DNA from: Blastopirellula marina | GTDB lineage: Bacteria > Planctomycetota > Planctomycetia > Pirellulales > Thermoguttaceae | Reading direction: 5' to 3' | DNA: 41,034 bases | Assembly (NCBI GenBank): GCA_020721965.1 | Contig: DYLS01000040.1 | Span: forward strand, 1 to 41,034 | Shown here: positions 12,205 through 29,227 of the stretch, one piece after another | Position numbering within the stretch: position 1 is the stretch's first letter | Layout: each line of letters starts with the position of its first letter | The notes under the pieces: generated by a model | The model's input: only the letters and a program-made list of their open reading frames with translations | What the model was told of the DNA's origin: nothing | The model's database searches: none | Translations under genes and position numbers: made by a program

Positions 12205-12678
12205 CTAGCCGTTCCTGGGCGAGGCGTTATGGCAGCATCCGTTGCGGCATTCCAATTCCGCGATTTTGCGAATCCTGCGCAAGTGCCGATCTCCTTCGAA
12301 CTCCGTGCGGAGCCAGATCTCGACAAGCCGATCGGCGACTCGAGGCCCTAGGATGTCGGCAGCCAGGCAGAGGATATTCAGATCGTTATGCCTGCGGCTG
12401 ACCTCGGCGGTGATCTCGTCGTGGCAGGGCGCCGCACGAACCCCAGGAAACTTGTTGGCCACAATGGCCATCCCCAATCCACTGCCACAAATCAAGATGC
12501 CACGATCCGCGCTTCCGTCACTGACCCGGCGGGCGACATCGGCGGCGACCTCCGGATAATCCACGGCCTCTCCATCAACGCCCACGTCCACGACCTGGGC
12601 ACCTAATCCCTCGAGCAAGACGAGCACCTTGTGACGCAGTGTGGACCCGCGGTGATCGCTGCCGATGGCGACTCGCAT
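12205..12678 (-). CDS. rpiB: ribose-5-phosphate isomerase B (RpiB/LacA/LacB family)
   Basis: A 157-residue cytoplasmic sugar-phosphate isomerase. Family motifs are intact: SDHRG at the N-terminus (D8 and H9), the catalytic cysteine C64 in ICGSGLGMAIVANK, PGVRA after it, and HNDLNILCL (H97, N98). RpiB interconverts ribose-5-phosphate and ribulose-5-phosphate in the pentose phosphate pathway; LacA/LacB relatives act on galactose-6-phosphate, so substrate is likely but not certain. ATG 12678 gives the normal start (MRVAIGSDH); earlier in-frame starts add unrelated residues. It is useful as an internal comparison for the RpiB-like BMC protein at 22247-23038, which has lost these catalytic residues. 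Confidence 0.9.
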   Translation of the reverse strand: MRVAIGSDHRGSTLRHKVLVLLEGLGAQVVDVGVDGEAVDYPEVAADVARRVSDGSADRGILICGSGLGMAIVANKFPGVRAAPCHDEITAEVSRRHNDLNILCLAADILGPRVADRLVEIWLRTEFEGDRHLRRIRKIAELECRNGCCHNASPRNG

Positions 12679-16695: not shown

Positions 16696-18033
16696 TCAGG
16701 GCCGCCGTGGCCCGGCAATCCATTCCAGATTGCTGATCCCCGGCTTGGGCAAAGGATAATTGCCGGTCGCGTCTGGCAAGGTGGGCGGGTCCATGCCTAG
16801 GGTAGCCTCTTCGGGCAAAGGTCGATAGGCGAAATCCATGCCAGCCACGTCCTCGAACCGCATGGCCTGCCCCGTGTAAACTGCCAACTGGCCCAGTACG
16901 GTGATCATCGTACTCTTGGCCATGTGGTAGCCGCTGTTGTAGGGTTGCCCCTTACGGATCGAGTCCATGAGCGTATCGATTTCCGTCTGGTAGGGGTCGT
17001 TCTGCTCCCCCTCGAACTTCCAATTCGTCTCCCCTTCGATTCGCTTCTGCCCCAAGTAGCAAACCCCTTTCGTGCCCCTGATGATATCGCTGGCGTTGCC
17101 GTAAGTTCCATTCTGCGTCCGGCACATGGCGTACACCCGGGCGCCGCTATCGTATTCGTACACAACGGATTGATTGTCGTACATGTCCCCCAGCCCCTCG
17201 CCAAAAGACGCGGCGCGGCCACCCAGCCCAAAGGCCCAGGCGGGCATCTCCTCCTGCAAGGCCCAGGTGACACGATCCAAGTTATGAACCAGCGATTGCG
17301 GGAGGTCGTCCCCGGAAAGCCAGCAGAAGTGATACCAGTTCCAAAATTGGAATTCGAGCTCGGAATGCTCGGGCTTGCGGGCAAAGACCCGGTACGGGGC
17401 ACGGAGGAACATCGATTGCACCGCCACGATATCGCCCAGGATACCGTCGTGAATCCGCTTCATGGTCTCTTGCCAGCCCAGGTCGAACCGGCTTTGGAGC
17501 CCCGAAACGAGACTCAGCCCCTTTTCCTTGGCCAGATCGCAGGCCGCCTGCATCCGCCGCACCCCAACCGGGTCGATTCCATGCGGCTTTTCCACGAAGA
17601 CGTGCTTGCCCGATCGGATCGCCTCTTCGGCATACATCGGGTGGAACTTGGAGGCGCACGCAATGAGCACCACGTCGCAGGCCTCAATCACTTTCTTATA
17701 ACCCTCCAGACCGGTGAAGCGGTGATCGGCGTCAACCACCACGCGATCCGATGCTTGAGCCTTCAAGTTCTGATAAGCCGCGTTGAGCCTGGCCTCGAAG
17801 ATGTCGGCCATGGCGACGATTTGAACATCCGGTCCGGCCTTCAAGGCTTGCGAGGCCGCGCCCGAGCAGCGTCCCCCGCAGCCAATCATTCCCACGCGGA
17901 TGACGTCGCTTCCCGCGGCATGGACGCTCCGCGCCAAGGCCGGGCTGGCCAAAGCGGCCATTCCCCCCACCCCCGATTGTGCCAAGAAGGATCGCCGTGA
18001 AAAAGAAGCCTTGGAGGACATCGTGTTACCCAT
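16696..18033 (-). CDS. Tat-exported Gfo/Idh/MocA oxidoreductase
   Basis: A 445-residue oxidoreductase with a twin-arginine signal (SRRSFLAQSGVGG near residue 10, cleavage after a run of alanines near 35). The Rossmann motif VGMIGCGGRCSGA begins near residue 43, and EKPHGIDPVGVRRM lies near residue 150. Long C-terminal regions are typical of the large planctomycete Gfo/Idh/MocA paralogues thought to work on sugars in the periplasm. GGAG sits about eight bases before the ATG at 18033. It is downstream of the isomerase and ThuA-like genes on the same strand, with a 321-bp gap holding a short inverted-repeat element, so co-transcription is possible but not shown. The substrate is unknown. Confidence 0.9.
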   Translation of the reverse strand: MGNTMSSKASFSRRSFLAQSGVGGMAALASPALARSVHAAGSDVIRVGMIGCGGRCSGAASQALKAGPDVQIVAMADIFEARLNAAYQNLKAQASDRVVVDADHRFTGLEGYKKVIEACDVVLIACASKFHPMYAEEAIRSGKHVFVEKPHGIDPVGVRRMQAACDLAKEKGLSLVSGLQSRFDLGWQETMKRIHDGILGDIVAVQSMFLRAPYRVFARKPEHSELEFQFWNWYHFCWLSGDDLPQSLVHNLDRVTWALQEEMPAWAFGLGGRAASFGEGLGDMYDNQSVVYEYDSGARVYAMCRTQNGTYGNASDIIRGTKGVCYLGQKRIEGETNWKFEGEQNDPYQTEIDTLMDSIRKGQPYNSGYHMAKSTMITVLGQLAVYTGQAMRFEDVAGMDFAYRPLPEEATLGMDPPTLPDATGNYPLPKPGISNLEWIAGPRRP

Positions 18034-18160
18034 CGTTCATGCTCCTGTAGGAAAACCCATGAAACCCACCATCCGATCACGCCATCTCCGCATGCGTAGT
18101 GCGAAGGTATCCCAGGTGCGTGCTGCATCACCACCGCGCAACATTCAGGCTTCTTGCATC

Positions 18161-18314
18161 GTAACGGTTCACGGAACAGGCTGCGTATGACGCGGTGGCA
18201 CTCACAACATTTTGTGCGATCCTTGAGCAATTGGTGCCCACGCGCAGAGCGTCTTTGTCACACGCTTCGTGAAAACACGTCGTGCTCCGCATGATTCCAC
18301 CCGTGAACGGTTAC
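18161..18314. repeat. 154-bp segment with 14-bp terminal inverted repeats
   Basis: GTAACGGTTCACGG at 18161 and CCGTGAACGGTTAC at 18301 are inverted repeats matching at 13 of 14 positions. The enclosed 126 bp has no coding frame of note. A perfect inverted match to the right end lies at 40980-40993. It fills most of the gap between the isomerase gene and the oxidoreductase gene. Confidence 0.5.
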
Positions 18315-18354
18315 CTCGCGTCGAGCACGAGACAGACCTGGATTTCTTCAACCG

Positions 18355-19224
18355 TTAGACGCAGTGGCTTCCTCGGGGATGCCCAGCGGTGCTCCGCAAC
18401 CACTTCAAGGAGCGTTCGATCATCGGCCCGCCCTGCCCTTCACATTCCATGCTCAACGGGCCGCTATAGCCGCTATTGCGAAGGATCGTGAGGACCTGGC
18501 GAATATTGCCGGCGTTCACACCCTCGCCAATCGCACAATGACTCACGGCGATCCCCGTCTCTTGTCCGCGGACCGCCGCCGCCAGCGACTCGCTAACATC
18601 CTTGATGTGTACATGGTGAATGCGGGAGGCAAATCGTCGAGCGAACTGCACAGGATCCTGGCCCGCAATGAACGAATTGCCCGTGTCGAGGTTGAGCCGC
18701 AAATACGGGCTGCTGCAAAAATCCAGCATCTCGGCCAGGCGGTCGGGGTTGGTGGTGAAGTAGCCGTGCACCTCGATATTGATGGTGATCTGATAGGCCT
18801 CGGCGACTTCCATGATCTGTTCGTAGCTCCGCTTCATGAGGGCCATCGCCTCGTCGTCGGAAAGACCTTCCGGCCGATCCAGGCCATCGGTCGTGGCGAT
18901 CCTGGGGCAGCCCGCCAGCTTGGCCCAGCGGATCGCGTTCAGCACGTACGGCACGCCATACAGGGGTCCATCCTTGCCGGACAGGGGATACGCGGCATCG
19001 ATCTGCGAAAAGGCCACACCGTAGCGATCCATTTTCCGTCGCAACAGGAGCGGATCCTCGTACAACGCTACGTGCGGCTGGTACCCCAGACCGTGAATCC
19101 AGCTCACTCCGCCAATCACCCCACACTCGATGAAACGCAGGTCGTGCGATTGCGCCCATTGCAAGCACTTCTCGAAATTCCAATACGACGAATTGAAGGC
19201 GTCCGTGTGAAAGCTGATTTGCAT
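18355..19224 (-). CDS. TIM-barrel sugar phosphate isomerase/epimerase
   Basis: A 289-residue protein of the AP-endonuclease-2 fold group (xylose-isomerase-like TIM barrel). Visible features include MQISFHTDAFNSSYWNFEKCLQWAQ at the start, INIEVHGYFTTNP with a metal-ligand-type Glu, LRLNLDTGNSF with Asp, and IHHVHIKDVS with the His pair and Asp expected of the metal site. Such enzymes epimerise or isomerise sugars or inositols. ATG 19224 is supported by AGAGGAG about 11 bases upstream. The ThuA-like gene ends 71 bp upstream on the same strand, so the two are probably one operon. The family is clear and the substrate is not. Confidence 0.87.
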   Translation of the reverse strand: MQISFHTDAFNSSYWNFEKCLQWAQSHDLRFIECGVIGGVSWIHGLGYQPHVALYEDPLLLRRKMDRYGVAFSQIDAAYPLSGKDGPLYGVPYVLNAIRWAKLAGCPRIATTDGLDRPEGLSDDEAMALMKRSYEQIMEVAEAYQITINIEVHGYFTTNPDRLAEMLDFCSSPYLRLNLDTGNSFIAGQDPVQFARRFASRIHHVHIKDVSESLAAAVRGQETGIAVSHCAIGEGVNAGNIRQVLTILRNSGYSGPLSMECEGQGGPMIERSLKWLRSTAGHPRGSHCV

Positions 19225-19295
19225 GGGTTCATGGCTCCTCTCACGCGTGGTTCCCAGGACTCTGGTTGAAGCTCCTCGTCCAGACCGGCCGCATC

Positions 19296-20156
19296 CTATC
19301 GCCCGGCCGACCACAAACAACCGCGGCGATACAATGCCTGCACGCTGGGATTGCGTAGAGCGGGAACATCGTGCCCTAACACACAATGAAAGACCCGGCC
19401 CCTACCAACATTCAAGGTGAAAGCCATGGGATAGGCACGACCATCCACCCGCGAGACGGCCTGCGCCACCACATGAATGGGTGTATCTCCGGCCAAGCAG
19501 GTGTACAGCTCGTCGGTCGTTTCGAAGTTCGTCAACCCTTGCGTGATCGGGTGCTTTGCGTCCGTAATCACGACTTCGAATTTGCCGTACGGATCGTGTC
19601 CTCGCAGCGACGGATCCCAAACCCTACCAGCCAGCTTCTCAAAGTCGGATTGGAACTCTTGAAAGGCACCGCACGCGAAATGCACCAGAACCAGCCCCCC
19701 GCCGTCCTTCACAAACTGGTTCAAGGCGTGGAAGGCCGCCTGACCCGGCACGTTGGCGTCGTAGTTCTTGAAATGCATGACGATGGTATCATATCGCGAC
19801 CAGTCCACGTTCCGCACCTCCGCCAGCCGATCCAGTACATCGACGTGAATCCGGCCGTCCTGCGACAAAGCCTCGACAAGAACGGGCGTGGTCTCCTGCC
19901 ACCTGTGAGCGGGATAATCCTCTCCCGTGATCAACAGGCAACGAACAGGCTCGGCCCCGGGTTGATTATCGACAGGAGAGAGGGCTGGCCGCGAAGCCTG
20001 CTCTGCACAGAGGGGAGCAGATTGGCACACAATTACGCCGAGAAGGAGCACGCATCGCGGGAGAAAGCCGAAGGTGTTAGCTCGCGATCTTGGGCAAGCC
20101 CAAGCAAACAGGAGGTTGGAAAGACAGTGGGAATATGGGGTGGGTCCGGGAGGCAT
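19296..20156 (-). CDS. exported ThuA-like protein
   Basis: A 286-residue protein of the ThuA family (glutamine-amidotransferase-like fold). Motifs include RCLLITGEDYPAHRW, YDTIVMHFKNYD, GGGLVLVHFACGAF and RGRVFHCVLGHD. A hydrophobic stretch, PRCVLLLGVIVCQSAPLCA, looks like a signal peptide but starts near residue 33, so the true start may be downstream of 20156 at a non-ATG codon; no ribosome site decides this. ThuA proteins occur with sugar oxidoreductases in planctomycetes, and the biochemical role is poorly defined. It leads a leftward cassette with the TIM-barrel isomerase and possibly the Tat-exported oxidoreductase, suggesting joint work on a carbohydrate. Confidence 0.8.
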   Translation of the reverse strand: MPPGPTPYSHCLSNLLFAWACPRSRANTFGFLPRCVLLLGVIVCQSAPLCAEQASRPALSPVDNQPGAEPVRCLLITGEDYPAHRWQETTPVLVEALSQDGRIHVDVLDRLAEVRNVDWSRYDTIVMHFKNYDANVPGQAAFHALNQFVKDGGGLVLVHFACGAFQEFQSDFEKLAGRVWDPSLRGHDPYGKFEVVITDAKHPITQGLTNFETTDELYTCLAGDTPIHVVAQAVSRVDGRAYPMAFTLNVGRGRVFHCVLGHDVPALRNPSVQALYRRGCLWSAGR

Positions 20157-20790: not shown

Positions 20791-21678
20791 TTACGAGCGT
20801 GAACCGGCCTGCAAGGCCTGCATCACGCGATCCGTGATGGCTTGAATCAGGGGCTCGCGATCATCGTCGGGCATGGGACTCCCGTTGCCGTTCGGACTGT
20901 TAGCAGGCGTGGCGCAGCTGCCTTCTTGGAATCGCGGGGGCTGAAAGACTTTCTGATCCACCCCGCTTTCCTTCCAACTGCTCCGGAATACGTCGTTGGC
21001 GCACAATTCGCAGTTCTGAAGCTCGGCCCGCGGATCCTTGTAGCCCAACTTCTGTTTCAGATCCAAGAGGGCCTTGGCCTCCGGCTCCGTGAAATAGTTG
21101 ATCCGTCCCAGACTCTGAGCCAGCATCAACATACGGCAATAAGCATCGAGGATCTCGGTGTACCAATACGCTTGCTCCACCGTATTGCCGAAGCTCACCG
21201 TGCCATGATTGGCGAGGATGATGACATTGCTTTTCTGCACAAAGGGGAGGATCGTATCGGCAAATTCCTGTGAGCCGGGCGTTGCATACCTCGCGATGGG
21301 AACTTCGCCCAGGAAGATTTCCACCTCCGGCAAGACGCACATGGGCACAGCCTCACGAGCGATTCCGAAGGCCGTCGCGTGCGGCGGATGGCAATGCACG
21401 ACCGACTTGATATCGGATCGCGACTTCATGATCGCCAAATGCAGCTTGATCTCGCTGGTGGCCTTCCTCCTGCCCGCAATCTGCTTGCCATCCATATCCA
21501 CGATGCAAAGGTCGTCGGGCTTCATGAAGCCCTTGCAAATCATCGTGGGCGAGCACAGCACCTCGTTTTCGCCAATGCGATAGGAAATATTGCCGTCATT
21601 CGCAGCGGCAAAGCCACGCTTGTACAGGCGATCGCCGATTTCGCAAATTTCCTGCTTGATCTTGTGCACGTTCAACAT
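20791..21678 (-). CDS. class II aldolase of the BMC (fuculose/rhamnulose-1-phosphate type), with C-terminal encapsulation peptide
   Basis: A 295-residue zinc-dependent class II aldolase. The active site is intact: E76 (SEIKLH), H95 and H97 (VVHCHPPH) and H158 (LANHGT). Relatives cleave L-fuculose- or L-rhamnulose-1-phosphate to DHAP and L-lactaldehyde. The catalytic domain ends near residue 215. A hydrophilic linker rich in Asn, Pro and Gly (about 250-270) leads to an amphipathic helix, PLIQAITDRVMQAL (277-290), with the i/i+3/i+4 hydrophobic pattern of encapsulation peptides that pull enzymes into BMC shells. It is the last gene of the BMC operon, 54 bp after the third BMC-P gene. The exact sugar phosphate is inferred from PVM-type loci. 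Confidence 0.92.
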   Translation of the reverse strand: MLNVHKIKQEICEIGDRLYKRGFAAANDGNISYRIGENEVLCSPTMICKGFMKPDDLCIVDMDGKQIAGRRKATSEIKLHLAIMKSRSDIKSVVHCHPPHATAFGIAREAVPMCVLPEVEIFLGEVPIARYATPGSQEFADTILPFVQKSNVIILANHGTVSFGNTVEQAYWYTEILDAYCRMLMLAQSLGRINYFTEPEAKALLDLKQKLGYKDPRAELQNCELCANDVFRSSWKESGVDQKVFQPPRFQEGSCATPANSPNGNGSPMPDDDREPLIQAITDRVMQALQAGSRS

Positions 21679-21732: not shown

Positions 21733-22041
21733 TTAGTAATCGCCCAACGGCCGCACGTCGATGTGATCCAGAATGGCAGCCACATAGGCGTCGACGGGCT
21801 TTGGCTCATCGAACGGTTGAGCTGCTTCTCGTCCCTCGCTAAAAGCCACGCGGCAATCCTCGTGCGAGGAGGTCTCGTCGTAAACGACCAGCTCCTCCGC
21901 TTGGGCCGCCGACCGGGCCAAAAGGTTATCTAGCGACAACGGCACCACAATCTTCCAAACCGCCCCCTTCAGGGAAGGGTGCGATCGATTTACGGTCACC
22001 GTTCCGATTACTTGTCCCACTCGCACTTCAACCCCTTCCAT
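21733..22041 (-). CDS. BMC-P pentameric shell protein (EutN/CcmL family), paralogue 3
   Basis: A 102-residue vertex protein. The family core is seen in VRVGQVIGTVTVNRSHPSLKGAVWKIVVPL, with an acidic tail and the C-terminal strand VDAYVAAILDHIDV. Pentamers cap the twelve vertices of the polyhedral BMC shell. It is the most diverged of the three here: the usual VDxVGAGxGE turn is replaced by VYDETSSHEDCRVAFSEG. ATG 22041 gives a normal start; a GTG at 22086 would add 15 residues. The gene lies between the aldolase and the RpiB-like gene, and a dispersed repeat separates it from the latter. Confidence 0.85.
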   Translation of the reverse strand: MEGVEVRVGQVIGTVTVNRSHPSLKGAVWKIVVPLSLDNLLARSAAQAEELVVYDETSSHEDCRVAFSEGREAAQPFDEPKPVDAYVAAILDHIDVRPLGDY

Positions 22042-22131
22042 GCCTTCCGCGGCGGCCAGGCGACCCCATCGTTTGCGCCTTATCACTCCGAACCGAATCC
22101 CGCCGAACCGAACGTTTCGGCGAACTTAATC

Positions 22132-22246: not shown

Positions 22247-23038
22247 CTAACTCAGGTATTTCGCAAAGGCATCCGGGCACTCACGACCCGCCCGAACAAA
22301 TTCCAACATCATCCGTTTGATCTGGAAGACGCCTTGTGTCGCGTCAGCGACGAGGACGTTTGCGCCCACCGCAGCGGCATCGGCGGCGACTTCGCTGGGC
22401 CGCCGCCCCAAGACAGCCCGAACGCCTTCCAAGCGGTTGGCCAAACACAGGCCGGCCGCAACCTGCGAAGTGACCACGCAGGCCCGACTCCCCGGACGGC
22501 GGACGACCTCCGCCACCCGGTGCGAGGTCCGCACCAGGCAATCCAACTCCTCCGGCAGGACGTTCACGTCTGTACCGCGAAAAAGCCCGGCCAGTTGCTG
22601 AGCCGAGATCCGTCGCGTAACCAAAACGACGGGCAACAAGGTGCCCCCCACGCCGCTTCCCACATCTGCCCCGCTGCGATTGCGTTTTGGTACCGGGCCG
22701 TAAGTCACCACAATGCCGCGTTGCCGCAGCAGGTCTCGAACCGCTGGGGTCAAAATGGTCCCAGGTTGGACCAGCAAGCGCCGCACGCCGTTGAGCTGGC
22801 CATCCAGCGATGCCACGGTAACCACGCGATCCGGGATTGCCAACTCGCCCTCCCGCGCGGAGATGATCCGCGCTTTTGCGGCCGCTGCGATAGGCGGCGG
22901 GCTGGGGGAGGGCGTCTCGCACGCCGACGCAGCCTCTGCTTGCGGCTCCACGGCGTTTTTGTGCCCCAACGCCGCGAGCACCTCGCGTACGATCCGCTCC
23001 ACCGTTTCGTTATCAGGTACGCCTTGCAGCTCTTGCAT
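22247..23038 (-). CDS. RpiB-like BMC-associated protein of unknown function, with N-terminal encapsulation peptide
   Basis: A 263-residue protein. Residues 10-25 (NETVERIVREVLAALG) form an amphipathic helix like those of the BMC enzymes, followed by a Pro/Ser/Ala linker (27-60). Residues 70-115 include QPGTILTPAVRDLLRQRGI, a short motif reminiscent of other BMC accessory proteins. Residues about 135-260 resemble the RpiB/LacA fold: VVTSQVAAGLCLANRLEGVRAVLG aligns with ICGSGLGMAIVANKFPGVRA of the RpiB encoded at 12205-12678. The catalytic CGSG is replaced by TSQV and the HND motif by AAVGANVL. An ordinary isomerase is therefore unlikely. The start overlaps the upstream stop by one base (TGATG), so translation is coupled to the BMC-P gene. 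Confidence 0.82.
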   Translation of the reverse strand: MQELQGVPDNETVERIVREVLAALGHKNAVEPQAEAASACETPSPSPPPIAAAAKARIISAREGELAIPDRVVTVASLDGQLNGVRRLLVQPGTILTPAVRDLLRQRGIVVTYGPVPKRNRSGADVGSGVGGTLLPVVLVTRRISAQQLAGLFRGTDVNVLPEELDCLVRTSHRVAEVVRRPGSRACVVTSQVAAGLCLANRLEGVRAVLGRRPSEVAADAAAVGANVLVADATQGVFQIKRMMLEFVRAGRECPDAFAKYLS

Positions 23039-23295
23039 CAGTCGGCAATTCCAACCACGGACCAGCGGACGGGCGTTTTCTTATCTTGCAGTACCGATTG
23101 CGTGTGCTTCCCATCGCTGGTAATGATGACCTGATCTCCGATGCCTGCCCCCAAATGATCCACCGCCAGCACAGGGTCTCCGTCAGGCGACCGGCCGTCC
23201 GCCGCGATGGGCTGGACCAATAACAGACGCCATCCCTTCATGGAAGGGTGCTTGATCGTTGCCCTGGCCGTTCCCACCACGCGTCCCGCCAACAT
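23038..23295 (-). CDS. BMC-P pentameric shell protein (EutN/CcmL family), paralogue 2
   Basis: An 85-residue vertex protein, a typical length for EutN/CcmL. Visible core: MLAGRVVGTARATIKHPSMKGWRLLLVQPI, then LAVDHLGAGIGDQVIITSDG (the VDxxGAGxGE turn) and the last strand VRWSVVGIAD. The open frame continues upstream to 23649 inside the aldehyde dehydrogenase gene, but only the part from ATG 23295 has homology. An AAGG sits about nine bases upstream. Its stop overlaps the start of the RpiB-like gene and it follows the aldehyde dehydrogenase by 86 bp, so it is clearly in the operon. Confidence 0.9.
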   Translation of the reverse strand: MLAGRVVGTARATIKHPSMKGWRLLLVQPIAADGRSPDGDPVLAVDHLGAGIGDQVIITSDGKHTQSVLQDKKTPVRWSVVGIAD

Positions 23296-23381: not shown

Positions 23382-24836
23382 TCAACGCCCCAAAATCCGC
23401 AGACTGTCGATCATGGCGCAGCGGCGTTCCCGGGTAAACGTCAAGGGCGTGGTGATGCCCTCGCCTGTGGGACCGGCAATCGAGAACGACAGATAACCTT
23501 CGCCTCCCAGGCCCAAACCGGCCATGCACGGCCCGTTCTTGACGAAGATCGTCGTATCCAAGGCCCGTCCCATTTTCGTCATGTTGACCACATCGCGCGA
23601 ATGGATGATGGCCGTATGCCGGAATCCATGTTCGCTGAGCCGTGCCCACTCGATGGCCTCATCCACGTCGCGGCAACGAACGAAAGGCACGAACGGCATC
23701 ATTTGCTCGACTTGAACGAAGGGATGCTCGAAATCGGTCTCGCCGAAGATCATCTCCACGTTATCGGGGATATTTCGCCCGGCTGCGCGAGCCAGAACCG
23801 CGGCATCTTGGCCGATAAATTCCTTGACCGCAACATCGTGGCGGTGCGGGCCTTCTCCAACAGTGGTAATGGCCTTGGCGGTCAGGGCTTCGATCTCCGA
23901 GCCGTTGAGCCGTACCGCCCCCGCCCGTTCCATGGCCTCCATCAACGCATCGAAAATGTCCGCCACGGCGAAGACCTGCTTCTCGCCGATGCAGAGGAGG
24001 TTGTTGTCGTAGGCCCCTCCCTGAATGATGCAGCGTGCGGCACGATCCAAATCGGCGGTCTCGTCCACGACCACGGGCGGATTGCCTGGCCCCGCGACGA
24101 TGGCTCGCTTCGCTTGCTGCAATGCTGCTTTGGCCACACCAGGACCACCGGTCACACATAAGATGGCAATATTGCGATGCTTGAAGATGGCGTTGGCTGT
24201 CTCCAACGTCGGCTCGGTGATGACGCAGATCAAGTTATCCACGCCCAAGTCTCGATAGATGGCTTGGTTGTACCGCCGCACGCCCTCCGCCGCCACGCGT
24301 TTGCCGCTGGGGTGTGGGTTGAAGACCACCGTGTTGCCCGCCGCCAACATGCTGACGGCGTTCCCCGTCAAGGTGGGCAGGGAATGCGTCACCGGCGTGA
24401 TCGCGCCAATCACGCCGAAGGGGGCATGCTCGATGACCGTCAATCCGTGATCGCCGCTGAAGACCTCGCTCCGCATGAACTCGACACCAGGTGAACGCTC
24501 GCCCAGCGTCTTCAGCTTTTCAATCTTGTGCGGCAGGCGTCCGATCTTCGTTTCCTCCATTTCCATCGTTCCCAGCTCCACACACTGTTCGATGGAAATG
24601 CGGCGGATATGATCGATCGCCCGCTTTCGCTCCTCGATGGTGCACCGCGAAAGCCGGTCGAAGGCCTCGCTGGCAGCGGCCACCGCCTCCTCGACATCCG
24701 TAAACAGCCCGAGCCTTCCCTGATAGCTACGCACGGCCGGCGCCGGTGCCCCCGGAAGGGCTCCCGACCCGTTGCTCTTCAAGCGGTGGAGAACTTCTTC
24801 GACTACGGAACGCACCAAATTCTCGTTGACTTGCAT
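23382..24836 (-). CDS. BMC aldehyde dehydrogenase (CoA-acylating, PduP/EutE-like), with N-terminal encapsulation peptide
   Basis: A 484-residue enzyme that converts an aldehyde, CoA and NAD to acyl-CoA and NADH inside the shell. Residues 4-20 (NENLVRSVVEEVLHRLK) are an amphipathic encapsulation helix, followed by a Gly/Pro/Ala linker. The catalytic domain shows ITPVTHSLPT, VTGGPGVAKAA and the nucleophile C282 in NNLLCIGEKQ, the signature of PduP/EutE enzymes rather than hydrolytic dehydrogenases. ATG 24836 is preceded by AGGAGG at a spacing of about seven bases; the GTG at 24851 lies within that site. In PVM-type loci the substrate is thought to be lactaldehyde or propionaldehyde derived from deoxysugars. 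It lies between two BMC-P genes. Confidence 0.93.
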   Translation of the reverse strand: MQVNENLVRSVVEEVLHRLKSNGSGALPGAPAPAVRSYQGRLGLFTDVEEAVAAASEAFDRLSRCTIEERKRAIDHIRRISIEQCVELGTMEMEETKIGRLPHKIEKLKTLGERSPGVEFMRSEVFSGDHGLTVIEHAPFGVIGAITPVTHSLPTLTGNAVSMLAAGNTVVFNPHPSGKRVAAEGVRRYNQAIYRDLGVDNLICVITEPTLETANAIFKHRNIAILCVTGGPGVAKAALQQAKRAIVAGPGNPPVVVDETADLDRAARCIIQGGAYDNNLLCIGEKQVFAVADIFDALMEAMERAGAVRLNGSEIEALTAKAITTVGEGPHRHDVAVKEFIGQDAAVLARAAGRNIPDNVEMIFGETDFEHPFVQVEQMMPFVPFVRCRDVDEAIEWARLSEHGFRHTAIIHSRDVVNMTKMGRALDTTIFVKNGPCMAGLGLGGEGYLSFSIAGPTGEGITTPLTFTRERRCAMIDSLRILGR

Positions 24837-25006: not shown

Positions 25007-25330
25007 TCAGCCCCGCTTCCCGTCCTCCTTGTCGTACACGCACGTCTCCTTGACGTGCACCTGATCGACGATGGCAATGATGACCGTATCCACGGGGAGA
25101 TTTTTGGTCTCGGGAGTGAGCCGGGCACTGGAACCTTGCACGATCAGCACCAGCTCGCCCTCGCCAGCCCCCACCGTGTCCACGGCAACGAAGGTACGTC
25201 CTGTCCCCACTAAGCGGCTGCGCGTCTCCGGGTCGAGACGGCACGGCTCGACCGTCAACAGCTTGTGGCCGACCATCGAGCCGACTTTGTGCGTAGCGAC
25301 CAAACTGCCGGTCACGCGGGCCAAGAACAT
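25007..25330 (-). CDS. BMC-P pentameric shell protein (EutN/CcmL family), paralogue 1
   Basis: A 107-residue vertex protein and the most canonical of the three: FLARVTGSLVATHKVGSMVGHKLLTVEP, VAVDTVGAGEGELVLIVQGSSAR and the closing strand VDTVIIAIVDQVHV. A charged tail of about 12 residues (KETCVYDKEDGKRG) follows. The start is only two bases past the stop of the kinase gene, so the two are translationally linked. The gap of 170 bp to the aldehyde dehydrogenase holds no further gene. Confidence 0.92.
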   Translation of the reverse strand: MFLARVTGSLVATHKVGSMVGHKLLTVEPCRLDPETRSRLVGTGRTFVAVDTVGAGEGELVLIVQGSSARLTPETKNLPVDTVIIAIVDQVHVKETCVYDKEDGKRG

Positions 25331-25332
25331 GA

Positions 25333-26520
25333 TCAGCCTCCCGCCTGCAAAACGTCGCGAACCTGCCGAGCCACCATCAACTCCTCATTGGTCGGCATGG
25401 TCCAGACGCGAATCCGACCACGGGAATCGCTGATCTCGCACTCTCCGCGGGCATCGCGATTCTTTTGCGGATCCAACACAAGGCCCAATTCCTCCAGATT
25501 GGCACACACCGCGGACCTCAGTTCCGCGTCGTTCTCGCCGATGCCGCCCGTGAAGACCACCATGTCCGCCCCGCCCAATTCGACGAAACAGGCGCCGAGA
25601 TAATGGCGAATCGCGGCGGTGAAGACATCGATGGCCAAGGCGGCCCGCGAGTTGCCCTGGGCCGCGGCTTGGCGTATGTCGCGCATGTCCGTGCCCACCC
25701 CGCTCAAACCCAACAAGCCCGACCGGTTCGCCAAGGCATCCAGCGTCTGTTCCAGCGTCCAACCCGCTTTGGCCATCACGATCGGAATGGCGAAGGCGTC
25801 GAAATCCCCCACCCGATTGTTGTTCGGCAAACCGGTCTGGGGGCTCATTCCCATACTAGTGAAGACGCTTTGACCATTGCGGATGGCGCACAGCGAACTG
25901 GACCCGCCCAGATGACAGGACACGACACGAAGATCGTTGCGTCCCATCAGCTCGGCCGTGCGAACCGCGATATAGCGGTGGCTGGCCCCGTGAAAACCCC
26001 AGCGCAGCACATGCCACTCCGCCCACTCGTAGGGCACGGCATAATACCGGTTTCGATCGGGCATGGTCCGGTGAAAGTCTGTCTCGAAGGCAGCCACCAA
26101 GGGGATGCCCGGGAGCTTTTCCCGCAGCAATCGCATCGCCGCAATGTAGGGTGGATTGTGGGCTGGAGCCGTGGACGCCATCTCTTCCATCGCCGCCAGT
26201 ACGTCTTCAGTAACCCGCTGCACCCCGGACACGCGGCCCCCATGCACCGCCTTGAAGCCGATGGCCGCCACCTCCGCGGCGTCCCGCAAACAGCCCAACT
26301 CCGGGTGGGTCAATTGCTCCAAGCAGCACCGCACGGCCACGGCATGATCGGGGACGGGGAGCTTCTTTTCCAACCGCTTCCCGGCGATTTCCGCCGTGAT
26401 CGGGCTTTCCTTGGCCCCAATGCGCTCGATGCCGCCGCGCGCGATCTGCCGCTCCGACGTCATGTCGAAAAGGCGATACTTGAAGCTCGTCGAACCGAGA
26501 TTGGCGACCAAAACCTTCAT
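25333..26520 (-). CDS. ackA: BMC-associated acetate/propionate kinase family protein
   Basis: A 395-residue acyl kinase, normal family length, that makes ATP from an acyl phosphate and ADP. Conserved features: NLGSTSFKYRLFD (canonical NxGSSSxK), RWGFHGASHRY, SGLLGLSGVGTDMRDI, FTGGIGEND and TNEELMVARQ with the C-terminal Glu. The motif that normally reads MMGTRSGDxDP is GLPNNNRVGDFDAF here (230-243), keeping the Arg and Asp but altering the surroundings, which may mark a BMC-specific substrate variant. It would take the acyl phosphate made by the PduL-type enzyme encoded earlier in the operon. No encapsulation helix is seen, consistent with action outside the shell or recruitment by other means. 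Confidence 0.9.
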   Translation of the reverse strand: MKVLVANLGSTSFKYRLFDMTSERQIARGGIERIGAKESPITAEIAGKRLEKKLPVPDHAVAVRCCLEQLTHPELGCLRDAAEVAAIGFKAVHGGRVSGVQRVTEDVLAAMEEMASTAPAHNPPYIAAMRLLREKLPGIPLVAAFETDFHRTMPDRNRYYAVPYEWAEWHVLRWGFHGASHRYIAVRTAELMGRNDLRVVSCHLGGSSSLCAIRNGQSVFTSMGMSPQTGLPNNNRVGDFDAFAIPIVMAKAGWTLEQTLDALANRSGLLGLSGVGTDMRDIRQAAAQGNSRAALAIDVFTAAIRHYLGACFVELGGADMVVFTGGIGENDAELRSAVCANLEELGLVLDPQKNRDARGECEISDSRGRIRVWTMPTNEELMVARQVRDVLQAGG

Positions 26521-26667: not shown

Positions 26668-26937
26668 TCAGCTCAGGTACGCGGCGATCACACCTTCCGC
26701 GGGGCGGGGAATGATGTGGCTGGCCACCAATTCACCGACCTGCGAAGCAGCATTCGCACCGGCTTCCACTGCGGCTCGCACACTGCCCACATCGCCGCGG
26801 ACGATCGTCGTCACCAATCCGCCGCCGATCTGCACGCGCTTCACGATCTGGACGTTAGCGGCCTTCGCCATCGCATCTGTCGCTTCCACCAAAGCCACCA
26901 AACCCTTCGTTTCAATCAATCCAATGGCGTCTTGCAT
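26668..26937 (-). CDS. BMC-H hexameric shell protein, paralogue 2
   Basis: An 89-residue single-domain BMC protein: [32 protein letters not shown], pore loop RVQIGGGL (GGG at 38-40), then [20 protein letters not shown] and VASHIIPRP. Hexamers tile the facets of the shell, and the pore loop lines the central channel. The open frame extends upstream to 26997, but ATG 26937 fits the family and an AAAGGG lies about 11 bases before it. It follows the other BMC-H gene by 66 bp and precedes the kinase gene by 147 bp. Confidence 0.95.
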
Positions 26938-27003
26938 GGTAGAGATACCCTTTCTTTTTTCAACAATCCCAGCTCGAGTACTTTTGCGAGGCGTCATGAT
27001 GAA

Positions 27004-27309
27004 TCAATCCGCCTTGGATTCCTTGACCATGGTCGCCGGCAAAACCGCCGAAAGCTCATCATGAGGGCGAGGAATGACCTGCACGCTAACCACCTCGCCG
27101 ATCCGCGCGCCAGCCGCCGCACCGGCGTCCGTGGCCGCCTTGACCGCCGCCACATCACCCGTCACAAACACGCTCACCAATCCGCTCCCCACCTTGTCCC
27201 AACCCAAGAACTGCACATTGGCAGCCTTGAGCATGGCATCGGTGGCTTCCACCAGGGTCACGAAACCCTTGGCCTCAATCATGCCTAAAGCTTCCATTGA
27301 CTTTGCCAT
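27004..27309 (-). CDS. BMC-H hexameric shell protein, paralogue 1
   Basis: A 101-residue BMC-H protein: [33 protein letters not shown], pore loop DKVGSGL (GSG at 41-43), [22 protein letters not shown] and [11 protein letters not shown], with a tail of about 12 residues ([12 protein letters not shown]). The GSG pore resembles that of PduA-type shells, unlike the GGG of its neighbour, so the two hexamers probably differ in what they pass. It lies 143 bp after the PduL-type gene in the leftward operon. Confidence 0.95.
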
Positions 27310-27452: not shown

Positions 27453-28118
27453 TTAGGGCTTGAACAACTCGACTCGCACCGCGTGATCGATATCCGCGGC
27501 GTTCCCTTCATCCGTATCCAGATGCACCTCCAGCTTGCTGGTTTCATCCGCACGGACCAACAAGCCCTCATACACCGTCGTGCAAGATCCCGATTCGATG
27601 CGCAGAGACATGCGATCGCCGTTTTGGACGCCGTAATAGTCGGCATCCCGGAGGTGCATATGCACGTGCCGCTCGGCGCGAATCACGCCTTCCTTCAAGT
27701 CCACCACACCCGCCGGTCCCACCAGCACGCATCCCGGCGTGCCGTCGATCTTGCCGCTGGCACGCACCGGGGCATCGATCCCTAGGGAAATGGCATCCGT
27801 AAACGCCAACTCCACCTGGGTCCGTGAACGCGTGGGTCCCAAGACGCGAACGCTGGGCAACATCCGCCGCCGCGGCCCCACGAGCATCACCGTTTCTTCC
27901 GCGGCGTAAAAGCCGTCCTGGTACAGCGGCTTCATGGGCGTCAATTGATGCCCCTTGCCGAACAGCGTCTCGACATCCTCCTGACTCAAGTGGCAGTGCC
28001 GCGCCGAAATGCTGACCACCAGTTCGGGCTTGCCCGTCGGGCCGCCCAGCAACTGCACCACGATTTCGCGGACGATCTTTTCCACCTGCGAACGATCAAT
28101 CGGAGGTGCCACGCTCAT
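27453..28118 (-). CDS. pduL: PduL-type phosphotransacylase, with N-terminal encapsulation peptide
   Basis: A 221-residue enzyme that converts acyl-CoA and phosphate to acyl phosphate, recycling CoA in the shell. Residues 7-24 ([18 protein letters not shown]) form the encapsulation helix. Metal-ligand histidines are present: H41 and H43 in SARHCHLS, H151/H153/H155 in AERHVHMHL, and H199 in [13 protein letters not shown]. The length matches PduL rather than Pta. ATG 28118 is preceded by AAGGAAGGAG at about 12 bases. The frame stays open upstream to 28499 through a 14-bp tandem array, but that period is not a multiple of three, so the extension is not credible as protein. It is the first structural BMC gene. 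Confidence 0.94.
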
Positions 28119-28375
28119 GGTTCTCGGGTTCTCCTTCCTTAACCTGAATACCGGCCTTCCGCCGGAAGATGTTCCACCTGTGATCGCGCCTGCGGCCGTT
28201 CCCTGCCCCGGCTCTTTTGTCCCAGTTATTTTGCCCAGGCTATTTGTCCTGATTACTTTTTCCTGGTTACTTTGACCTGATTGCTTCGCCCCCGTTACTT
28301 TGCTCCAGCTATTTTCCCCAGCTACTTTGTCCCGGTTACACTCACGTACCGCTCTCGCCCAGCCGCGATCCGCGT
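28119..28375 (-). promoter_or_regulatory. leader between deoR and the BMC structural genes
   Basis: 257 bp between the deoR stop and pduL start. Most of it is a 14-bp tandem array (28216-28339). The rest contains the pduL ribosome site. A second promoter for the structural genes could lie here, but I see no convincing -35/-10 pair. Read-through from the deoR promoter is also possible. Confidence 0.4.
28216..28339. repeat. 14-bp tandem array in the BMC leader
   Basis: Nine consecutive units (seven of 14 bp and two of 13 bp) with plus-strand consensus near TTTGTCCCAGTTAC; on the transcribed minus strand they read about GTAACYRGGACAAA. Divergence between units is moderate, but the phase is kept throughout. 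Being out of step with codons, the array is probably non-coding. Confidence 0.85.
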
Positions 28376-29227
28376 TCAACCGCTCCGCACCGCAGAATTC
28401 GCGTCGCCCATGCCGATCTCTCCCACCGGAAGCGTCTGCCGCTCCTGCACGGGGGCCACCAAGAGCCTCACACCAACCGACTCGAGTCTCGCCCGCCATG
28501 CATCCACCAAGCTCTCGTCCGAGACGACGACTTGCACGGCATCCAACGGGCAGAGGTGCGTCAAGCTACAGTGCCCGAACTTGGAACTGTCCGCCACCAC
28601 GATCACCTCGTCGGCGACCTCCATCATGCGGCGTTCGGTCTCCACCAGCAGAACGTTATTGTTGAAAAAGCCTTGCTCGTTGATCGCAGCCACGGACAAT
28701 ATCGCCTTCCGCACGCGCAGCGATCCGATCATCGCGTTGGCCAGCGGCCCTTGCGACACGCCGCTGCGAGGACAAATACTACCTCCCAAAAAGACTAGGT
28801 CACTAATCGGACTGGAGGCAAACAAATTGGCCACGGGAAGCGAATTGGTCACGACATGCACCGGCAGCCCGACCAATAGCCGGGCCACTTCATACGTCGT
28901 ACTCCCGCCGTCCAGAAGGACGGAATCGCCCGGCTGAATCAACTCCACGGCTTTGCGGGCGATCGCCTTCTTTTCGGCCCAATTCATGGGTTGCCGCAGT
29001 TCGAAATGGGGCAATTTGGGCGTCTTACCGGTATATAAAACGCCGCCGTGAATCCGCTGCGCCTCCCCTTCCTCCTCCAATGCCTCCAAGTCCCGGCGGA
29101 CCGTCGATTCCGACACGCCCAGCACGGTCGTCAAATCGTCCAGCGTGGCAAAGGTTTGCGCACGGATCAGCTCCAGAATCTGCTGCCGTCGCTCCTGAAC
29201 AGTCAGCGTTGATGAACTGGGCGGCAT
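28376..29227 (-). CDS. DeoR/GlpR-family transcriptional regulator of the BMC operon
   Basis: A 283-residue repressor-type protein. The DeoR winged helix-turn-helix lies at residues 10-62 ([42 protein letters not shown] without a break in the family pattern). The C-terminal DeoRC sensor domain has the sugar-phosphate loop [15 protein letters not shown] near 106 and [10 protein letters not shown] near 215. Such regulators usually release DNA when a phosphorylated sugar binds, fitting control by fuculose- or rhamnulose-phosphate. AGGAAG is about eight bases before the ATG. A strong promoter overlapped by a palindrome lies upstream (29305-29333), suggesting autoregulation. It is co-directional with, and upstream of, all BMC genes. 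Confidence 0.92.

Follow-up and report, generated by a model that had tools for sequence, protein, structure and literature searches.

How enzymes are attached to the shell is known for just a few model microcompartments. Loss of EutQ or of PduM is reported to leave enzymes and shell in separate foci. Salmonella EutQ is described as associating with the shell, at the EutM/EutL interface, through H1/H2 (residues 9-41), as seen by deletion and imaging, and as binding helices of cargo enzymes through H3/H4 (62-99) (PMC12487888). According to the same description, the cupin at the EutQ C-terminus forms dimers and is not required for assembly, acetate kinase activity has been reported for the C-terminal domain, and the EutQ proteins of E. 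faecalis and L. monocytogenes are without the first three helices (PMC12487888). An earlier paper assumed that the EutQ site is on the cytosolic face of EutM (PMC4827028). The second described case, PduM, is presented as linking shell and core and as having an N-terminal signal helix (PMC9132943, PMC12108088). A 2025 paper states that no homology of PduM is known beyond Pdu organelles (PMC12108088), and according to a 2016 one Pdu operons appear to be without a EutQ homologue (PMC4827028).

The PVM type is described as an aerobic fucose/rhamnose organelle with a characteristic gene content (PMC4207490, PMC8217296). The window, that is, the whole stretch of 41,034 nucleotides analysed here, holds a locus that is a PVM-type (fucose/rhamnose) microcompartment by Pfam gene content. 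Its shell genes comprise three BMC-P and two BMC-H, and between two of the BMC-P genes sits a gene whose product is given the working name RPL. The features are as follows.

12205-12678, minus strand: intact RpiB
20791..21678, minus strand: class II aldolase, the PVM signature enzyme (PF00596)
21733..22086, minus strand: BMC-P (vertex) protein after RPL (PF03319; start codon uncertain)
22247..23038, minus strand: RPL gene, 263 aa, start ATG at 23038
22250..22648, minus strand: RpiB-fold domain of RPL, residues 131-263 (AlphaFold model; catalytic residues missing)
22697..22849, minus strand: ITP module of RPL, residues about 64-114 (predicted strand-helix-strand-helix-strand; profile homology)
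22958..23011, minus strand: N-terminal encapsulation-type helix of RPL, residues 10-27, NETVERIVREVLAALGHK (AlphaFold helix and helix profile)
23038..23295, minus strand: BMC-P protein before RPL (PF03319; approximate start)
23382..24836, minus strand: aldehyde dehydrogenase with N-terminal encapsulation-type helix (PF00171 and helix profile)
25007..25330, minus strand: BMC-P protein (PF03319)
25333..26520, minus strand: acetate kinase family (PF00871)
26668..26997, minus strand: BMC-H shell protein (PF00936)
27004..27309, minus strand: BMC-H shell protein (PF00936)
27453..28127, minus strand: phosphotransacylase (PduL type) with N-terminal encapsulation-type helix (PF06130 and helix profile; approximate start inside ORF 27453-28499)
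28376..29227, minus strand: DeoR-family regulator (PF00455, PF08220)

Pfam scans of 22 ORFs, part of those in the window, showed no lactate/malate dehydrogenase. Just past the aldolase, the minus strand at 16696-20156 carries genes for a GFO/IDH/MocA oxidoreductase, a xylose-isomerase-like TIM barrel and ThuA, which may belong to another sugar pathway.

The start codon of RPL shares bases with the TGA stop of the upstream BMC-P gene (TGATG). The first-pass annotation had placed the gene correctly at 22247-23038; it lies on the minus strand, and a plus-strand reading was rejected. The same annotation had compared the C-terminal half of RPL to RpiB, a likeness that is weak for the RPL sequence alone. 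The single sequence matches PF02502 at E=0.024 (15 bits, below the cut-off of 24.7 bits), which is the sole Pfam match at E<=10, a cupin domain (PF06249) being absent. An NCBIfam search with RPL alone gave no match, BLASTP against the window RpiB returned just a 10-residue alignment (E=0.49), and other single-sequence searches found no match in the PDB, in plasmids or in the contigs of relatives' genomes. Since these searches came up empty, profiles were required. PF02502 is matched at E<=1 by 17/24 RPL homologues (best 1.5e-8), its curated cut-off is passed by three homologues in other genomes (G023, G018, G006), and a 24-row RPL profile retrieves RpiB structures at E 8e-5. Kinship with RpiB is secure at the family level, and both the family profile and the predicted fold uphold it.

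In the AlphaFold model of RPL, built with 28 relatives (pLDDT 81, pTM 0.54), three parts can be told apart: a helix (residues 10-27), a small unit of strands and helices that is predicted well (about 65-113) and a strand-helix domain (134-262). Comparison of residues 131-263 with RpiB structures gave Z 16.7 with an rmsd of 2.0 over 120 residues. Matches from Z 16.7 to 11.4 fall within the RpiB superfamily and the best row outside it scores 8.2; the predicted domain has the full RpiB fold. Like RpiB/LacAB (PF02502), RPL carries the ANK..GxRA and ..AN.L motifs. It differs from them in adding a helix and the ITP module and in having lost the catalytic Cys, His and Asn and the phosphate-site Arg. 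In E. coli numbering, we take Cys66, Asp9-His10 and His99-Asn100 to be the catalytic residues of RpiB, together with the phosphate-site Arg. Among the 32 RPL homologues, Cys66, His99, Asn100 and Arg133 are present in none; Asp9 occurs in three and His10 in one, never both. The skeleton positions Asn77 (31/32), Arg83 (30/32) and Asn103 (32/32) are kept, which indicates that the skeleton is retained and the chemistry gone. The earlier observations that CGSG has become TSQV and that the HND motif is missing are confirmed by the alignment. RPL is not an RpiB enzyme, because the catalytic residues were tested and found absent.

Columns invariant across the 24 RPL rows are V17, V20, T97, P98, A200, N201, R202 and N227, of which N201, R202 (Lys in RpiB) and N227 are conserved RpiB positions. 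These rows share no new residue set. In a closer set of 29 rows C198 is invariant and C254-P255 nearly so; a new family-wide active site built on these cysteines was considered and dropped, as neither C198 nor C254 is invariant in the wider 24 rows. The C-terminal half of the RpiB domain has a mean pairwise identity of 0.37. For two pairs of sequences, G002-G001 and window-G003, dN/dS of the RpiB domain is 0.08 and 0.22, respectively; the ITP module gives 0.07 and 0.08 as against 0.43 and 0.52 for the main linker, and the helix values are based on 20 codons. Purifying selection acts on both the ITP module and the RpiB domain, the latter being maintained rather than decaying.

The first-pass annotation had also described an N-terminal helix like that of microcompartment enzymes. 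A profile of the RPL helix was searched against 5775 ORFs from 21 loci, those of the window and of 20 relatives. With E<=1 as the limit, its matches were 19 RPL proteins, as expected by construction, 12 phosphotransacylases, seven aldehyde dehydrogenases and nothing else, with unrelated matches starting from E 4.3. The phosphotransacylase and aldehyde dehydrogenase matches lie at or near the N-termini in the copies viewed; the C-terminus of the aldolase was unmatched by this profile. The helix predicted at residues 10-27 is therefore enzyme-like by a profile specific to the phosphotransacylase and aldehyde dehydrogenase tags. Its hydrophobic moment alone is unremarkable. This measure was rejected as uninformative and replaced by the profile test, since the moment was reached by 7% of shuffles for RPL, 19% for the aldehyde dehydrogenase, 45% for the phosphotransacylase and 52% for the aldolase C-terminus.

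Between the helix and the RpiB domain lies the part of RPL that the first-pass annotation overlooked. The ITP module, of about 50 residues and of V..xxTPAxRDxLxxRxI type, has T97-P98 invariant in 24/24 rows. It holds most of the functional information in RPL and ties the protein to assembly proteins of the EutQ/PduM type. On profile evidence it is a homologue of the N-terminal stretch of EutQ and EutT and of the C-terminal stretch of PduM, TIGR02536 and the microcompartment 'flavoproteins'. Among NCBIfam models at E<=1, TIGR02536 is matched by 11/24 RPL members and PduM by 5/24, within the ITP stretch in the members viewed, and the NCBIfam alignments put that stretch at the C-terminal ends of PduM and TIGR02536. 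In a forward search, 2555 ORFs from 12 loci (Enterobacterales, Fusobacteriota, Bacillota) were screened with a profile built from RPL modules only. The first round retrieved the C-terminus of a Rahnella microcompartment flavoprotein (1.1e-6), a 106-aa Acetoanaerobium protein (1.9e-4), the N-terminus of Cetobacterium EutT (2.0e-4) and that of Enterococcus raffinosus EutQ (2.5e-4), the last confirmed as EutQ by PF06249 (E 5.9e-36); E. coli PduM scored 0.47 and E. coli EutQ 3.7. After three rounds, with E-values inflated by iteration, 17 proteins stood at E<=1.5e-8, including three PduM and E. coli EutT. E. coli EutQ followed at 0.022, the next match at 2.3, and the best of 7665 shuffled ORFs at 0.97. 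When the search was reversed, with a profile of seven non-RPL modules, RPL genes took the first 17 places among 5775 ORFs, seven of them at E<=0.01. These profile searches show that the module is real and shared, although for E. coli PduM and EutQ the individual links depend on iteration or intermediates. The E. coli EutQ link is weak and runs by transitivity through E. raffinosus EutQ. This last protein (L167:8986-9603) retains the N-terminal ITP stretch, unlike the reported EutQ of E. faecalis and L. monocytogenes.

In its own genome RPL is the sole clear ITP gene. The fold of the module alone was not interpreted: an AlphaFold-type model (pLDDT 82.6) had no PDB match at E<=0.001, its best matches being a DUF1893 structure (0.015) and dCMP deaminase (0.036).

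RPL was found in 32/40 genomes (own included) and BMC-P in 38/40, with neither in G020 and G024. Six genomes have BMC-P without an RPL match (G008, G009, G014, G019, G028, G032). The G009 contig runs out just past the second BMC-P gene, and G008, G014 and G019 gave one BMC-P match each, in loci that look broken. A Thermogutta MAG is among the closest relatives found. In 20/20 relatives' loci, all chosen for having an RPL match, the same two BMC-P genes flank RPL, and this slot is conserved in many families within the order and class. In 244 planctomycete genomes, a draw not selected for RPL, BMC-P (PF03319) is present in all 56 genomes that match the RPL profile at E<=1e-10, and 39/95 BMC-P genomes are without such a match. 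At E<=1e-3, 22/101 RPL-profile matches lie in genomes without BMC-P; these weak matches are taken for ordinary RpiB genes because those viewed mostly cover the RpiB part alone. Three complete PVM loci, in G028 (L175), G032 (L176) and G266 (L123), have their two BMC-P genes adjacent and, in the stretch fetched, show neither RPL nor any other ITP match, which indicates that RPL is not needed in every PVM organelle. RPL is a real, conserved and under-described microcompartment component. Among the papers listed in literature searches, none concerned RPL or a module common to PduM, EutQ and RPL.

Twenty further planctomycete regions were fetched for variants. RPL is present in six of them, all PVM loci; one (G197) has just the helix and the ITP module, and one (G266) is without RPL. 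Four carry an ITP-RpiB fusion between BMC-P genes with no aldolase match, and another four such a fusion with no BMC gene found within 18 kb. Three hold other ITP proteins (with ACT domains), and one region is without either. The most divergent PVM copies are those of L116, L118 and L124, where the narrow ITP profile falls below or near threshold. The RPL slot of G030 contains an 87-aa gene, and the three forward frames that follow it show no trace of RpiB, so that in this genome, as in G197, helix and ITP module alone occupy the slot. The fusions, all planctomycete, are located as follows.

L117:8814-9605: ITP-RpiB fusion
L119:8334-9170: ITP-RpiB fusion
L120:8479-9408: ITP-RpiB fusion
L121:8510-9373, minus strand: ITP-RpiB fusion
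L125:8933-9679: ITP-RpiB fusion
L126:8806-9495: ITP-RpiB fusion
L130:7290-8042: ITP-RpiB fusion
L134:4676-5395: ITP-RpiB fusion

The fusions share the ITP-RpiB order with RPL and differ in having a near-intact active site: D9, H10, H99, N100, R133 and R137 are kept in 8/8, and Cys66 is replaced by Asp in 8/8. This suggests that the PVM protein came from a microcompartment-targeted RpiB fusion and lost its active site, and that the body can be dropped. A tree of the RpiB domain (40 rows: 16 of 32 RPL, 8 ITP-RpiB, 16 ordinary RpiB) places ordinary RpiB on one side (SH-aLRT 94). The tree is compatible with descent of RPL from the fusions and does not decide it, because the RPL branch is very long, with four of the RPL rows flagged for their length.

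We propose, with moderate confidence, that RPL works in the PVM microcompartment as an adaptor between shell and core, with a dead isomerase as its folded body. The N-terminal helix would join the enzyme core, as the encapsulation helices of aldehyde dehydrogenase and phosphotransacylase do, and the ITP module would bind the inner side of the shell, like the homologous first ~40 residues of EutQ. The RpiB-fold domain, its catalysis lost, would form a folded, probably dimerising, body that multiplies both binding ends and takes the part played by the cupin domain in EutQ. The RpiB fold normally oligomerises. Such an arrangement would put RPL in the lumen as an oligomer with two binding partners and a role in assembly, and RPL would then work like EutQ and PduM. 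The first-pass annotation was right about an RpiB fold without catalytic residues, an encapsulation-type helix and membership of the microcompartment. Among the functions it had offered, a scaffold now gains most support; a sugar-phosphate binder or a new enzyme is less probable, and the family shares no new residue set. The phrase 'undescribed function' is too strong if RPL works like EutQ.

The comparison with EutQ is close in composition. Both proteins are encoded in a microcompartment locus and combine an ITP-type stretch, N-terminal in EutQ, with a cargo-side helical part and a folded body, and H1/H2 fall within the part of EutQ that is homologous to the ITP module. The body is a cupin in EutQ and an RpiB fold in RPL; the cargo helices H3/H4 of EutQ come after the ITP stretch, whereas the single helix of RPL precedes the module. 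The EutQ stretch is described as two helices (PMC12487888), whereas the RPL module is predicted to have strands as well. RPL is not a EutQ, because it has no cupin. The EutM residues for EutQ binding (K53, D57, Q64) were considered as support and set aside as weak, being common in BMC-H proteins; the window BMC-H at 27004-27309 keeps the K and D and not the Q, and the other BMC-H keeps none. PduM resembles RPL in its N-terminal signal helix, its ITP-type stretch and the position of its gene beside BMC-P, and differs in that the stretch is C-terminal and the middle region unlike RpiB. The best RPL member scores 14.4 of 50 and 19.3 of 179 bits against the PduM models TIGR04493/NF011957, and by model score RPL is not a PduM. 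TIGR02536 and the microcompartment 'flavoproteins' (PF02441) likewise have an ITP-type stretch, and their genes sit between phosphotransacylase and BMC-P in Eut/Pdu/GRM loci. Their module is at the C-terminus and their body flavoprotein-like or unassigned, in contrast to the RpiB fold of RPL.

Several observations tell against the adaptor reading. The ITP module also occurs on EutT and a phosphotransacylase, and may be a general shell tag rather than the sign of an adaptor. A mere body need not be as conserved as the C-terminal half of the RpiB domain. Finally, there are the three PVM loci without RPL, the cargo and shell elements come in another order than in EutQ, the link to E. coli EutQ is weak, strands are predicted in the RPL module where the EutQ stretch is described as two helices, and EutQ had earlier been assumed to bind the cytosolic face of EutM (PMC4827028).

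Some of these observations fit a different account, which we regard as unlikely although it fares best among the alternatives, namely that RPL is a lumenal enzyme or ligand binder with a re-purposed RpiB pocket, delivered by the helix and the ITP module. Its ligand might be, for example, fuculose/rhamnulose-phosphate or a DHAP-related compound. Purifying selection on the RpiB domain agrees with this account, as do the cysteines of the closer family (29 rows) and the presence of ITP modules on real or likely enzymes (EutT, a phosphotransacylase, the near-intact RpiB fusions). However, the wider family shares no new polar residue set, the invariant N201, R202 and N227 are simply conserved RpiB positions, and G030 and G197 do without the RpiB domain altogether. 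Galactose-6-phosphate isomerase is built of two unlike subunits, and its chains are among the structural matches of RPL. A LacA-like, non-catalytic RPL could pair with an active RpiB and bring it into the shell, as the RpiB fold's normal oligomerisation would allow. An intact RpiB gene does lie about 10 kb away in the window, as likewise in G002, where the distance is from the microcompartment locus, and the window's own genome has a second RpiB on a different contig. This pairing is nonetheless improbable: fucose/rhamnose breakdown requires no ribose-5-phosphate isomerase, RpiB and the microcompartment locus are on separate contigs in G036 and ~45 kb apart in G025, and the window RpiB carries neither helix nor ITP module.

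We give similarly little credence to the view that RPL is a passenger, an old microcompartment-targeted RpiB losing function and retained by chance. The missing catalytic residues, the near-intact fusions in other planctomycete loci and the three PVM loci without RPL would suit a passenger, but dN/dS well below 1 in the ITP and RpiB domains and a slot kept in many families within the order and class would not. That RPL, having kept the fold, still performs sugar-phosphate isomerisation is scarcely credible with Cys66, His99, Asn100 and Arg133 in 0/32 homologues and Asp9-His10 never together.

The adaptor reading of RPL can be extended to the other bearers of the module, which comprise EutQ, EutT, PduM, TIGR02536, microcompartment flavoproteins, a phosphotransacylase, and ACT and RpiB fusions. 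Tentatively, and as a proposition about as easily doubted as believed, the ITP module may be a shell anchor shared by metabolosomes, to which each organelle type joins a core-binding helix and an interchangeable body, the PVM body being a dead isomerase from a microcompartment-targeted RpiB. If so, a module common to RPL, PduM and EutQ would unite the few model cases, suggest a role for the C-terminus of PduM and be of use in engineering as a compact candidate for a shell anchor. It becomes testable whether a single short module serves to anchor contents to the shell in many types of microcompartment. RPL would also add a catalytically dead enzyme domain in structural use; a dead enzyme as a structural part had already been suggested for the second aldehyde dehydrogenase of GRM1 loci (PMC4207490).

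Several further ITP-type proteins came to light. A flavoprotein of GRM loci has been named as a possible electron shuttle (PMC4207490). Two 'flavoprotein' genes (PF02441) in the phosphotransacylase/BMC-P slot, L081:14567-15262 and L083:12679-13386, encode a C-terminal ITP-type module, and a structural role of such 'flavoproteins' now seems worth testing. A PduL-type phosphotransacylase of Acetoanaerobium (L169:9595-10497) has the module at its C-terminus. Three other planctomycete microcompartment loci combine an ITP-type module with ACT domains (L127:8117-8785, L128:6188-6742 and L129:7770-8747, all minus strand). In a Cetobacterium eut locus, an 88-aa ITP-only protein (L082:13482-13748) directly follows BMC-P and resembles the minimal forms of G030 and G197.
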